Shown: positions 20,834 through 36,322 of the stretch, one piece after another
Numbering within the stretch: the stretch's first letter is position 1
How the letters are laid out: each line of letters begins with the position of its first letter
NCBI GenBank assembly: GCA_900470775.1
Contig: UCBZ01000010.1
Span: 73,515-137,514, forward strand
DNA length: 64,000 nt
Source: Hyphomicrobiales bacterium
Lineage (GTDB): Bacteria > Pseudomonadota > Alphaproteobacteria > Rhizobiales > Beijerinckiaceae
Direction: 5' to 3'
Translations under genes and position numbers: made by a program
Notes under the pieces: model-generated
The model's input: the letters and a program-made list of their open reading frames with translations, nothing else
Databases searched by the model: none
Told to the model about the DNA's origin: nothing

Positions 20834-23011
20834 ATGGGACGGGCGTCATTCTCGGGCGAAGCGCAGCGCAGACCCGAGAATCTCGATCAGGAGATGCTCG
20901 GGTCAAGCCCGAGCATGACGGCGCGACCTTACCGCTTCCGCAAGCTGAAGATCGCCGCCGCATCCTGCGCACTGCTCGTCACCGCTGCCACTGCCGCCCT
21001 CCTCCACTATGCCTCGACCCTTCCCCCGCTCGACCTCGCCGCCGCGACCGACCGCTCCACCGTCGTGCTCGACCGTGAGGGCCGGCTGCTACGCCCCTTC
21101 CTGACGCGGGACGGACGCTGGAAGCTCCCTGTCGGCGTCGATGATGTCGATCCGCGCTATCTCGCCATGCTCAAGGCCTTCGAGGACAAGCGCTTCGACG
21201 GCCATGCCGGCATCGATCCGCTTGGCCTCGCCCGCGCCGCCGGCCAGATGCTGCTGAACGGCCGCGTCGTCTCGGGCGGCTCGACGCTGACGATGCAGGT
21301 CGCACGCCTGCTGGAACCGCGCGAGGAGCGCAACCTCGCGGCCAAGCTGAGGCAGGCGGTCCGTGCCATCGAGCTGGAGCGCCGGTTCACGAAGCCGCAG
21401 ATTCTCGACCTCTACCTGACGCTCGCCCCCTTCGGCGGCAATCTCGAAGGTGTGCGGGCCGCGAGCTTCGCCTATTTCGGCAAGGAGCCGAAGCGGCTCT
21501 CGGCCGCCGAAGCGGCACTGCTCGTCGCCTTGCCGCAATCGCCGGAGACGCGCCGGCCGGATCGCTTCAACGAGTCCGCCCGCAAGGCGCGCGACCGCGT
21601 GCTCGCTCGCGTCGAACGGGCAGGGCTCGCCACCGCATCCGAAGTCGCCGCAGCGCGTGAGGAGCCGCTGCCGAACGCGCGCAAGCCCTTCCCCAATCTC
21701 GCACCGCATGTCGCCGAGCAGGTCGTCGCCGAGGCGCCTGCTACGCGCCGCCACCGGCTCAGCATCGATGCCCGCCTGCAGACCGGCCTCGAAGGTCTCG
21801 CCCGCGAGCGCAGCCTGGGCCTCGCCCCGCAGGTCTCGATCGCCATTCTTGCCGTCGACAACGAGACCGGCGAGATCAGGGCCTCGGTCGGCGGCGTTGA
21901 CTACTTCGCCGCCGAGCGGGCCGGCTCGCTCGACCTGACACGGGCCCTGCGCTCGCCCGGCTCGGCGCTCAAGCCCTTCATCTATGCGCTCGCCTTCGAC
22001 AACGGCATCGCCCATCCCGAGACGATGCTGGAGGATCGGCCGGCTCGCTACGGCATCTATGTGCCCGAAAATTTCGACATGACCTTCCAGGGCATGGTCT
22101 CGGCCCGCAAGGCGCTGCAGTTTTCGCTCAATGTCCCCGCCGTCGAACTGCTCTCGGCACTCGGGCCACAGCGCTTCCTGTCGCGCCTGCGCGATGCCGG
22201 CGTCGCCATCGCCATGCCGAAGGAGGGCGGCGCACCCGGCCTCGCCGTCGGGCTCGGCGGGCTCGGCATCACCTTGCAGGATCTGACGCGGCTTTATGTC
22301 GGGCTCGCGCGCGGCGGCGAGGTGCCGGAACTGAGGGTCAGGATAGATGACAGCCGCGACCGCGCGCCCTCGCCCCGCCTCGTGGAGCCGGTTGCAGCCT
22401 GGTACCTCGCCGACACCCTGCTCGGTGCGCCGCCGCCGCTCAATGCCGTCCCGGGCCGCATCGCCTACAAGACCGGCACCTCCTATGGCTATCGCGATGC
22501 CTGGGCGGTCGGATTCGACCGCAAGCACACGATCGGCGTCTGGGTCGGTCGTGCCGATAACGGCGCCGTGCCGGGGCTGGTTGGACGCAGCGTCGCGGCG
22601 CCGATCCTGTTCGATGCCTTCGCCCGGCTCGGGCTCGATCCGCGCCCGTTCCCGCAACCGCCCGACACCATCGTCGCGACATCGGCGCATCTGCCGCCGC
22701 CACTGCGCCACTTACGCCAGGATGTGCCCAAGACGGCTGCCGCGATGGCGACGCCGACGCTCAAGCTCGCCTTCCCGCCCGAAGGCGCCAGGATCGACCT
22801 CGGCGCCTCGGCGGCGGAGGGGCAGACGCAGCTCAACCTCAAGGTCGCTGGCGGCGTGGCGCCTTATACCTGGCTGGTCGATGGGACGCCGGTGCTGGCG
22901 CCGACGCGGCGGCGCGAGGCCGCCTGGCAGCCGCCGGGCAAGGGCTTCATGCGGATTTCGGTGATCGACGGAACCGGCGCCAGCGAAAGCGTTTCGGTGC
23001 GGCTGCAGTAG
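20834..23011 (+). CDS. pbpC: Penicillin-binding protein 1C (transglycosylase/transpeptidase)
   Basis: The roughly 725-residue bifunctional class A penicillin-binding protein has a membrane anchor at about residues 38-60. The GT51 domain has FEDKRFDGHAGID (catalytic Glu near 117) and SGGSTLTMQ. The transpeptidase domain has SPGSALKP (nucleophile in SALK), FSLNVP (SxN) and YKTGTSYGYRD (KTG). A C-terminal BiPBP_C beta domain completes it. Start choice is uncertain. ATG 20834 has AGGA at 5 bases, but then about 27 N-terminal residues are encoded by a dispersed repeat. ATG 20915 lies in the repeat and has no ribosome site. GTG 20819 is also open. It works with the upstream macroglobulin. Confidence 0.9.
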   Translation: MGRASFSGEAQRRPENLDQEMLGSSPSMTARPYRFRKLKIAAASCALLVTAATAALLHYASTLPPLDLAAATDRSTVVLDREGRLLRPFLTRDGRWKLPVGVDDVDPRYLAMLKAFEDKRFDGHAGIDPLGLARAAGQMLLNGRVVSGGSTLTMQVARLLEPREERNLAAKLRQAVRAIELERRFTKPQILDLYLTLAPFGGNLEGVRAASFAYFGKEPKRLSAAEAALLVALPQSPETRRPDRFNESARKARDRVLARVERAGLATASEVAAAREEPLPNARKPFPNLAPHVAEQVVAEAPATRRHRLSIDARLQTGLEGLARERSLGLAPQVSIAILAVDNETGEIRASVGGVDYFAAERAGSLDLTRALRSPGSALKPFIYALAFDNGIAHPETMLEDRPARYGIYVPENFDMTFQGMVSARKALQFSLNVPAVELLSALGPQRFLSRLRDAGVAIAMPKEGGAPGLAVGLGGLGITLQDLTRLYVGLARGGEVPELRVRIDDSRDRAPSPRLVEPVAAWYLADTLLGAPPPLNAVPGRIAYKTGTSYGYRDAWAVGFDRKHTIGVWVGRADNGAVPGLVGRSVAAPILFDAFARLGLDPRPFPQPPDTIVATSAHLPPPLRHLRQDVPKTAAAMATPTLKLAFPPEGARIDLGASAAEGQTQLNLKVAGGVAPYTWLVDGTPVLAPTRRREAAWQPPGKGFMRISVIDGTGASESVSVRLQ
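20845..20919. repeat. Paired-hairpin dispersed repeat at the 5' end of pbpC
   Basis: This is the best-preserved copy of its type. Hairpin one is ATTCTCGGG / CCCGAGAAT (20848-20856 and 20873-20881, 16-base loop). Hairpin two is ATGCTCGGG-TCAAG-CCCGAGCAT (20894-20916). The ends are GTC and GAC. It overlaps all plausible starts of pbpC. Confidence 0.88.
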
Positions 23012-23026: not shown

Positions 23027-23117
23027 GTCATGGTCGGGCTTGTCCCGACCATCCACGTCTTTCGTCCTCGAGCGCTACGGCCAAGACGTGGATGCTCGCC
23101 ACAAGGGCGAGCATGAC
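23027..23117. repeat. Paired-hairpin repeat with 35-bp inverted arms
   Basis: The arms at 23027-23061 and 23083-23117 are inverted copies of each other over 35 bp. Each arm folds on its own: ATGGTCGGG-CTTGT-CCCGACCAT on the left, and ATGCTCGCC-CTTGT-GGCGAGCAT when the right arm is reversed. All six differences between the arms fall in three base pairs, each changed on both sides. It sits between the converging pbpC and RND pump genes, where it could also act as a bidirectional transcript end, although there is no T-run. Confidence 0.9.
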
Positions 23118-34527: not shown

Positions 34528-35129
34528 TGGCAACCGACACGCTGATCGGCCCGGGCTTCTCCGACCCGGTCTTCCAGTCGCAGGGCGCCTTCCGCGCGCT
34601 TCTGGCGGCTCTCGCCGAGCCCGGCACGCGCCATGTCGTCAGTGGCGCGGTCGTGCCGCCCAAGGGCCTGCATGCCGCGACCGCCACCGCGCTGCTGACG
34701 CTCGCCGATTACGAGACCCTGATCTGGCTGCCCGCCGCGCTGCGCGACGGCGCAGCCGGCGCTTGGCTGCGCTTCCATTGCAGCGCCGCGCTGGTCTCCG
34801 ATCCCGCCAGGGCCGCCTTCGCCGTCATCGACGCCGGCTCTCCGGAACCCGCTTTGTCAGCCTTCGACAGCGGCAGTGACCAGTTCCCCGACCGCTCGAC
34901 GACGCTGATCGTGCAATGCACCGCGCTCGAAGGCGGCGAGGCGGTGACGCTGACGGGGCCGGGCATCGCCACCTCCCGCGTGATCGCGCCCGCCGGCCCG
35001 CGCGCCGGTTTCTGGGCCGAGGTCGCCGCCAACAACGACGCCTATCCGCTTGGGATCGATCTCCTGCTCAGCCATGCGGATGCCGTCTTCGGCCTGCCGC
35101 GCTCCACGCGGATCGGGGAGGTCTACTGA
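34527..35129 (+). CDS. phnH: C-P lyase subunit PhnH
   Basis: This 200-residue core subunit has the opening GPGFSDPVFQSQGAFRALLAALAEPGT, characteristic of PhnH, and ends FGLPRSTRIGEV. PhnH stabilises the PhnGHIJ complex and has a pyridoxal-transferase-like fold without the cofactor. The ATG at 34527 overlaps the phnG stop. Its own stop overlaps the phnI ATG. Confidence 0.95.
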   Translation: MATDTLIGPGFSDPVFQSQGAFRALLAALAEPGTRHVVSGAVVPPKGLHAATATALLTLADYETLIWLPAALRDGAAGAWLRFHCSAALVSDPARAAFAVIDAGSPEPALSAFDSGSDQFPDRSTTLIVQCTALEGGEAVTLTGPGIATSRVIAPAGPRAGFWAEVAANNDAYPLGIDLLLSHADAVFGLPRSTRIGEVY

Positions 35130-36322
35130 TGTATGTCGCGGTCAAGGGCGGCGAGGCCGCGATCCTCGCCACGCATGATCTGGTCGCCGAAGCGCGGCGC
35201 GGCGACGAGGCCGTGCCCGAAATCTCGGTCGCGCAGATCCGCGAACAGCAGGGCCTCTCCTGTGCCCGTGTCATGAACGAGGGCTCGCTCTACGACGCCG
35301 ATCTTGCCGCGCTGGCGCTGAAACAGGCGCAAGGCGATGTCATCGAAGCCGCCTTCCTGATGCGCGCCTACCGCACGACGCTGCCGCGCTTCGGCTCGTC
35401 GGAGCCGGTCGATACAGCCCGGATGGCGATCCGCCGCCGCGTCTCGGCGACCTACAAGGATCTGCCCGGCGGACAGGTGCTCGGCCCGACCTATGACTAC
35501 ACCCACCGGCTGTTCGATTTCGCGCTGATGGACGATGCCAAGAGCGTCATGGTCGGGCTTGACCCGACCATCTCGGGCCGCGAAGGGCGCCCCTCGACAG
35601 CGCCTCATTCTGCCGGAGATGCTCGGGTCAAGCCCGAGCATGACGTCGCGCCCCTCGACACCCACATGCCCCGCGTGCCCGATATCCTCGGCGCCGAAGG
35701 CCTGATGGAGCCCGAGACACCACCCGTGGGCGACCCCCGCCCCTTCGACCTGACCCGCGAGCCGGTCTCCTTCCCCGCCGATCGCGATGTCCGCCTCCAG
35801 GCAATGGCGCGCGGCGACGAGGGCTTCCTGCTCGGGCTTGGCTATTCCGTCCAGCGCGGTTTCGGCGGCAACCACCCCTTCGTCGGCGAAATCCGCGTCG
35901 GTGAGGTCTCGGTCGAATTCGTGCCCGAGGAGCTCGGCTTTGCGGTCGATCTCGGCGACATCACCCTGACGGAATGCCAAATGGTCAACCAATTTGCCGG
36001 CTCCAAGGATGTCGCACCGCAGTTCACGCGCGGCTACGGCCTGAGCTTCGGCCATAGCGAGCGCAAGGCGATGTCGATGTCGCTGGTCGACCGGGCTCTG
36101 AAATGTCGCGAATTCGGCGAGGCGGCTGAATACCCGGCGCAGCAGGACGAGTTCGTGCTCTACCACTCCGACAATGTCGAGGCGGCCGGCTTCGTCGAGC
36201 ACCTGAAGCTGCCGCACTACGTCGATTTCCAGGGCGAGCTCGAACTGATCCGCCGCATCCGGGCCGAACGCGAACAGCGCCTTGCCGGTGAAAACGAAGT
36301 CCTGCCGGAGGCCGCGGAATGA
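35129..36322 (+). CDS. phnI: C-P lyase subunit PhnI, with a repeat-encoded insert
   Basis: The 397-residue subunit is the nucleosidase-type core that, with PhnG, H and L, makes ribose-triphosphate phosphonate from ATP. The start MYVAVKGGEAAI, SYSVQRGFGGNHPFVGEIRVGEV-type core (near 240-262) and EFVLYHSDNVEAAGFVEHLKLPHYVDFQGEL end are standard. Residues 140-172 are encoded by a 99-bp dispersed repeat inserted in frame; without them the length (364) is normal. The insert falls between FDFALMDDAKS and the APLDTHMPRVPDIL linker, a spot where the family varies in length, so function is probably kept. Confidence 0.95.
   Translation: MYVAVKGGEAAILATHDLVAEARRGDEAVPEISVAQIREQQGLSCARVMNEGSLYDADLAALALKQAQGDVIEAAFLMRAYRTTLPRFGSSEPVDTARMAIRRRVSATYKDLPGGQVLGPTYDYTHRLFDFALMDDAKSVMVGLDPTISGREGRPSTAPHSAGDARVKPEHDVAPLDTHMPRVPDILGAEGLMEPETPPVGDPRPFDLTREPVSFPADRDVRLQAMARGDEGFLLGLGYSVQRGFGGNHPFVGEIRVGEVSVEFVPEELGFAVDLGDITLTECQMVNQFAGSKDVAPQFTRGYGLSFGHSERKAMSMSLVDRALKCREFGEAAEYPAQQDEFVLYHSDNVEAAGFVEHLKLPHYVDFQGELELIRRIRAEREQRLAGENEVLPEAAE
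35546..35644. repeat. 99-bp paired-hairpin repeat inside phnI
   Basis: Arms of 27 bp (35546-35572 and 35618-35644) are inverted copies with two differences. Each arm is itself a hairpin (ATGGTCGGG-CTTGA-CCCGACCAT on the left; ATGCTCGGG-TCAAG-CCCGAGCAT on the right). The two differences between arms form one compensated base pair. The element is 33 codons long, open in the phnI frame, and has the same GTCATG/CATGAC ends as the intergenic copies. Confidence 0.93.

Follow-up and report, generated by a model that had tools for sequence, protein, structure and literature searches.

A paired-hairpin repeat of the CGTC-tagged type and other dispersed repeats in one linker of PhnI in the genus Bosea

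The phnI gene of the Bosea genome analysed here, which encodes a subunit of the C-P lyase, contains a paired-hairpin repeat (family A) within an uninterrupted reading frame, and sequence comparison across the genus indicates that the same linker of this gene has received repeats from at least three dispersed families, and perhaps from five. We consider it likely that the element represents a CGTC-tagged REP dimer situated in a disordered PhnI linker, where it would be translated and tolerated, and that the repeat types occupying this linker have been inserted, deleted, overwritten and probably swapped.

Structure of the phnI element

All positions refer to the window, the 64,000-nt stretch of DNA that was analysed, and the features are collected in Table 1. 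The element consists of two inverted arms (35545-35578 and 35612-35645) of 34 nt each, which are 91% complementary and separated by 33 nt. Each arm incorporates a hairpin with a 9-bp stem and a 5-nt loop, ATGGTCGGG-CTTGA-CCCGACCAT in the left arm and ATGCTCGGG-TCAAG-CCCGAGCAT in the right arm, with the CGTC tags of the two hairpins pointing outward. The initial annotation of this sequence described a paired-hairpin repeat with inverted arms, in frame and with a length that is a multiple of three; both points are borne out, the element being 99 nt in length and open within phnI. A search of the window with the 19-nt hairpin pattern (up to one mismatch) returned four matches against 0.03 expected, two of the four being located inside the phnI element.

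Next to the element, neither a target-site duplication nor any direct repeat of at least 12 nt was observed, shorter repeats having been sought by eye and the exact ends of the element being uncertain. A 13-nt exact direct repeat (GCGCCCCTCGACA) is found in the spacer (35587-35599) and in the right flank within phnI (35648-35660), 61 nt apart, and may be the footprint of a spacer that arose in place. A spacer similar to that holding the window's copy of this repeat is also found in a distant phnI gene (L019). In one frame the palindrome encodes similar peptides on either strand, VMVGLDPTISG...RVKPEHD on the forward and MLGLDPSISG...RVKPDHD on the reverse strand, and an open frame would thus be available in either landing orientation.

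Table 1. Features of the phnI element and same-family hairpin units within the window.
Feature	Position	Strand	Basis
phnI (397 aa), C-P lyase subunit; insert at residues 140-172	35129..36322	+	Pfam PF05861; alignment to E. coli 4xb6/7z15
Family A paired-hairpin element, CGTC-REP-type, in frame, peptide VMVGLDPTISGREGRPSTAPHSAGDARVKPEHD	35546..35644	+	
CGTC tag of left hairpin	35545..35548	+	Sequence; class feature according to PMC3733652
Left hairpin, 9-bp stem and 5-nt loop	35549..35571	+	
47-nt spacer joining both hairpins, variable in length and sequence among strains	35572..35618	+	
Right hairpin, inverted, 9-bp stem and 5-nt loop	35619..35641	-	
CGTC tag of right hairpin (GACG on the + strand)	35642..35645	-	Sequence
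Same-family hairpin unit, early in a stop-to-stop frame and upstream of the penicillin-binding-protein domains of that frame	20899..20917	-	
Same-family hairpin unit, CTTGT loop subtype	23029..23047	+	

The PhnI protein and its linker

The translated phnI product matches the Pfam PhnI family at 6.5e-158 and has its protein family and fold in common with the C-P lyase subunit PhnI of E. coli (4xb6, 7z15, 7z17). Alignment with the E. coli protein (354 aa) covers query residues 1-139 and 180-382 and skips residues 140-179. The insert, which had initially been assigned to the enzyme core, is located outside it, in a variable linker between two conserved blocks. Bounded by the DF of THRLFDF and by MPRV, this linker comprises 48 codons in the phnI gene of the window and 21-25 codons in the 23 element-free Bosea alleles; between the same bounds, E. 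coli PhnI has approximately 20 residues as judged from the alignment, whereas Bosea linkers extend to 78 codons. The supposed addition of exactly 33 codons therefore holds for the length of the element, while the net gain in the linker is approximately 23-27 codons, and about 6-10 older linker codons would have been replaced or lost. Relatives without the element, which had been proposed as a check on insertion, were identified (23 of the 57 core Bosea phnI genes), but none has an exact empty site with rejoined flanking codons, because the linker of the element-free alleles is unrelated in sequence and mostly rich in Ala and Pro.

An AF2 model of PhnI was built with 71 sequences out of 80 proteins tried, nine being left out (L105, L110, L112, L115, L122, L147, L150, L151 and L154). 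The model is of mediocre quality (mean pLDDT: 71.8; pTM: 0.60), an earlier one being poorer (mean pLDDT: 61.6), and its top structure matches are E. coli PhnI 7z17_C and 4xb6_C (TM: 0.64 by query length; rmsd: 7.5). Residues 139-172, which coincide with the insert, have pLDDT values below 50 and contain no secondary structure longer than three residues, and the insert peptide is accordingly modelled as disordered. Other low-pLDDT stretches comprise residues 1-5, 119-128, 244-247 and 350-365. The accessible portion of PMC9947105 makes no mention of the PhnI linker.

Family A in the genome of the window

Family A was initially described as a mobile-looking repeat with copies elsewhere, and dispersed copies are indeed abundant, with 132 hairpin units in the genome of the window at up to two mismatches and 144 when the pattern is shortened by one base. 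The shorter pattern is present in all 67 genomes of the genus, with between 2 and 274 units in each, while the reversed control pattern gave no matches. The surroundings of the units were surveyed in 77 stretches around hairpins which, together with phnI, amount to 91 places and cover 110 of the 144 units (121 at up to three mismatches). A frame was considered coding-like if it ran without a stop for 50 codons or more on each side and showed a coding-like G+C content by codon position, with a second batch of 40 regions being judged by codon-position G+C alone. The phnI gene is the sole coding-like place among the 91 surveyed. The first 37 regions supplied 24 candidate frames for a Pfam search, which detected domains in three of them (CobO, a penicillin-binding protein and an amidohydrolase); in each of these three the element is located upstream of the domains, none of which spans it. 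We accordingly reject the view that this genome has many copies of the element inside genes, and the initial suggestion of spread into coding DNA does not describe the rule for family A here: within the places covered, phnI holds its sole copy inside a gene and the repeat is otherwise intergenic.

The 42 CGTC dimers listed for this genome (G000) fall into two spacer classes, CTC...GAG and CCACGTCTT...AAGACGTGG. The latter class has complementary ends and is seemingly associated with units of the CTTGT-loop subtype.

Linker types among Bosea phnI genes

A phnI match was obtained in 63 of the 67 genomes of the genus and none in the remaining four. In total 70 phnI loci were extracted (63 within the genus and seven outside it), of which 68 could be parsed, comprising 57 core Bosea loci and 11 outgroups; two loci from outside the genus (L070 and L071) failed start-motif parsing and are absent from all counts. 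The linkers of the 11 outgroups are 20-26 codons in length. Among the 57 core Bosea linkers, 16 carry family A, two an A remnant (L025 and L050), nine family B, one half of a B element (L030), one a B element with a nested family D element, one B', a repeat resembling B (L029), four family C, and 23 none, the classes being assigned by motif and the remnants, half B, B with D and B' by eye. The nested case (L046, genome G032) has a paired-hairpin element of family D placed inside B within the coding sequence, yielding a 78-codon linker that remains in frame. The B interiors, compared by eye, differ between L024/L046, L031/L032 and the remaining rows.

The reading frame is open in all 57 core phnI genes. 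There are nine distinct loop lengths among the 16 A rows, seven among the nine B rows and two among the four C rows, every one of which is a multiple of three, while all 16 A inserts share the same orientation and the same frame.

The other linker types also recur elsewhere in the genomes. With pieces and matches on either strand included, a B query gave 63 and 60 matches in two B carriers, 48 in G019, which has C and not B in phnI, seven in G040, six in the genome of the window and one in G057. With a C query, 20 and 17 matches were found in two C carriers and three in G040, and zero in the genome of the window, G062 and G057. Counting phnI, there are 21 places with family D in the D carrier and 11 with B' in the B' carrier, and neither repeat was found in the genome of the window.

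A profile search with PF01797 (Y1, RAYT-type transposase) gave no match in the genome of the window, which rules out a transposase of this type there, and none in G062, G029 and G004, the last of which carries C in phnI. Matches to this profile (L195-L199) were observed in G019 (three) and G032 (two), whose phnI types are C and B with D, respectively, and are clustered in each genome.

Entry, loss and exchange of linker types

On a phnI tree built with the linker removed, loop type, scored as five types, requires 24 changes (23-26 across 300 bootstrap trees), while 200 label shuffles on one bootstrap tree gave at least 25 changes, with a median of 30. Mixed types occur even within tight clades, one of which (support 100/100) comprises C, C, no element and B with D, and another (support 100/99) B, A, A, A and an A remnant. 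Such a scatter, which is almost random on the tree and for B (11 changes for 11 rows) and C (four for four rows) maximal, would be expected from many independent, recent insertions at a true hot spot with site-specific targeting. Carriers are also richer genome-wide in their own type (one-sided p: 0.01 for A, 0.0025 for B and 6e-6 for C), in a comparison made without correction for phylogeny and with the phnI copy included.

The copies of family A themselves, however, argue against a hot spot of this kind. With an A query from G005 and 40 candidates scored per genome in nine genomes, the copies in phnI from six further carriers (82-89%) rank above all other scored copies, although by a narrow margin in the case of the window's own phnI copy (90.6 versus 89.7 bits). 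The A copies in phnI of these seven carriers are thus more like each other than like the other scored genomic copies, so that repeated jumps of family A are not shown, and we reject 16 separate A insertions on the basis of this mutual likeness. For the B and C queries, the second-best match is likewise the phnI copy of another strain (89% and 87%, respectively, with one other carrier in each search). The orientation and frame shared by every A insert also run counter to independent insertion, and A against non-A requires 10-13 changes across the 300 bootstrap trees for 18 rows (16 A and two remnants). We regard recurrent targeted insertion as an unlikely source of the pattern, although B and C, given their full scatter, may each have been inserted more than once.

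Rather, the A copies in phnI are homologous between strains, and family A probably entered once or a few times and has since been lost, replaced or exchanged. The simplest reading of the family A distribution would be few entries, much loss and the exchange of linker alleles. An excess of same-type similarity is observed in two of 12 flank bins, both downstream (0-50 bp, 5/1000; 100-200 bp, 3/1000), and in none of the five upstream bins, by a test that takes no account of phylogeny or multiple testing; this faintly hints at recombination of loop types between strains.

Selection on the insert

The dN/dS ratio is 0.48 in the A insert versus 0.08 in the flanks, a pattern as for a translated, weakly constrained peptide. 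Synonymous divergence in the arms is low (pS: 0.137) in comparison with the flanks (0.360), where the lowest of 104 overlapping 19-codon windows has a value of 0.219. Between the arms, synonymous divergence across the 16 strains is 0.041 in the right arm (35618-35644) and 0.208 in the left.

The conserved arms could be explained if the hairpin were kept for a role in the phn mRNA, in its stability, in pausing or in tuning phnI against the downstream phnJ, with the peptide as a by-product. The RNA of the transcribed strand is predicted to form one long, very stable stem (-75.7 kcal/mol; z = -8.8; equal stability in 0/200 shuffles), and the invading repeats are inverted repeats, the linker loops containing them being more stably folded per base than those free of an element (medians of -0.46 to -0.59 versus -0.38, loop lengths differing between the groups). 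The absence of an element in 23 of the 57 core Bosea genes, however, speaks against such a role, as do the element-free loops (34, outgroups included), which fold like ordinary flank windows (-0.382 versus -0.392), and the stem pairs broken in five of the 16 strains (L013, L017, L019, L022 and L023). Homogenisation by the many genomic copies would likewise keep the arms alike, and could thus explain their conservation as well as a role of the stem could. We consider an mRNA function unlikely.

Stem-loop inserts that are skipped by the ribosome are known elsewhere, and removal of the insert before or during translation, by self-splicing or ribosome bypassing, would leave a PhnI protein of normal length. 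Neither process would need the several families and the nine, seven and two loop lengths of A, B and C to be multiples of three without stop codons, as all are, and no Rfam match is present in the window at gathering thresholds, which makes this explanation very improbable. An assembly or annotation artefact, with the element in reality outside phnI, can be practically dismissed, as the same structure is present in 16 genomes, including the single-contig assemblies G010 and G065, and in an isolate record (L078, Bosea sp. Root483D1).

Relation to known repeat classes

The available text of PMC3733652 defines CGTC-REPs by a CGTC (or TGTC/CCTC) tag at one end, a stem of 8 or 9 bp with complementary A,T first, a loop of 4 or 5 nt and a short tail, mostly CCA, and describes them as high-copy and mostly intergenic. 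They form inverted dimers, are frequent in alphaproteobacteria and have been reported within genes, and no dedicated or REP-flanked transposase had been found for them as of 2013 according to the same portion of that source. The phnI element has the tags, 9-bp stems beginning with ATG and 5-nt loops, and its family is present in high copy number (132-144 units) with 90 of the 91 surveyed places lacking a coding-like frame. Its tail is CTC rather than CCA, which is found in many of the 42 listed genomic dimers; the available text of PMC3733652 ascribes the CCA tail to "most" CGTC-REPs, and it is hence not an absolute criterion. On these sequence features the element fits the CGTC-tagged REP class. 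In the text available from PMC3733652, RPE-6 and RPE-4 of R. conorii are equated with CGTC-1 and CGTC-4, so that the class includes some Rickettsia elements and in-gene insertion as such is already known. The resemblance to the in-gene palindromes of Rickettsia that was noted in the initial annotation is in keeping with this assignment.

Rickettsia palindromic elements form in-frame fusions and enter many unrelated genes, as described in the accessible part of PMC10969869. The likeness to the phnI element, as judged from descriptions, is that a palindrome is inserted in frame in a gene while related strains are devoid of it. In contrast to those elements, however, family A of Bosea is located in a coding-like frame at one of the 91 places, while a single linker has been hit by several families. 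Different REPs at about the same site have been reported for recB in two Xanthomonas species (PMC3733652, available text), whereas in Bosea a single linker is occupied across the genus by several families, together with a nested one. The intragenic ERIC/RU elements (Delihas 2007, PMC2759123, available text) are small repeats with open frames inside annotated genes, but represent different repeats in different hosts, and a shared site is not mentioned in that portion of the source. Literature searches returned no report of such a repeat site in Bosea or phnI among the matches listed, and a search on Bosea repeats likewise nothing on such repeats among its listed matches. What is new is the site, with several repeat families in one phnI linker, in-gene palindromes being already known.

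Conclusions

We propose that the element is translated together with the rest of PhnI, which tolerates it. Each repeat type would have been inserted at the expense of some of the earlier linker sequence. Types would later have been deleted or overwritten, the nested element being one instance, and homologous recombination would probably have exchanged them between strains, while selection would act mainly for an open frame. More tentatively, the PhnI linker may serve as a natural landing pad, one coding site that tolerates inserts, where different palindromic families are taken up time and again, become nested, are shortened and pass between species through short-tract recombination. We hold this view to be possible rather than probable. 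If it is true, a core enzyme subunit would be continually given new disordered in-frame peptides of approximately 25 to 60 residues.

Rickettsia is the best-known source of in-gene palindromes, with scattered cases elsewhere. The Bosea linker provides a natural allele series in one multi-subunit enzyme, with empty alleles, three to five families, a half element, scars and a nest, in hosts that are free-living and include several named isolates. With this series one could test the effect of repeat-derived peptides on a protein, the route by which REP-like elements lacking a known transposase get into genes, and whether deletion or recombination removes the elements. The extra peptide encoded at this position of PhnI differs widely between related Bosea species.
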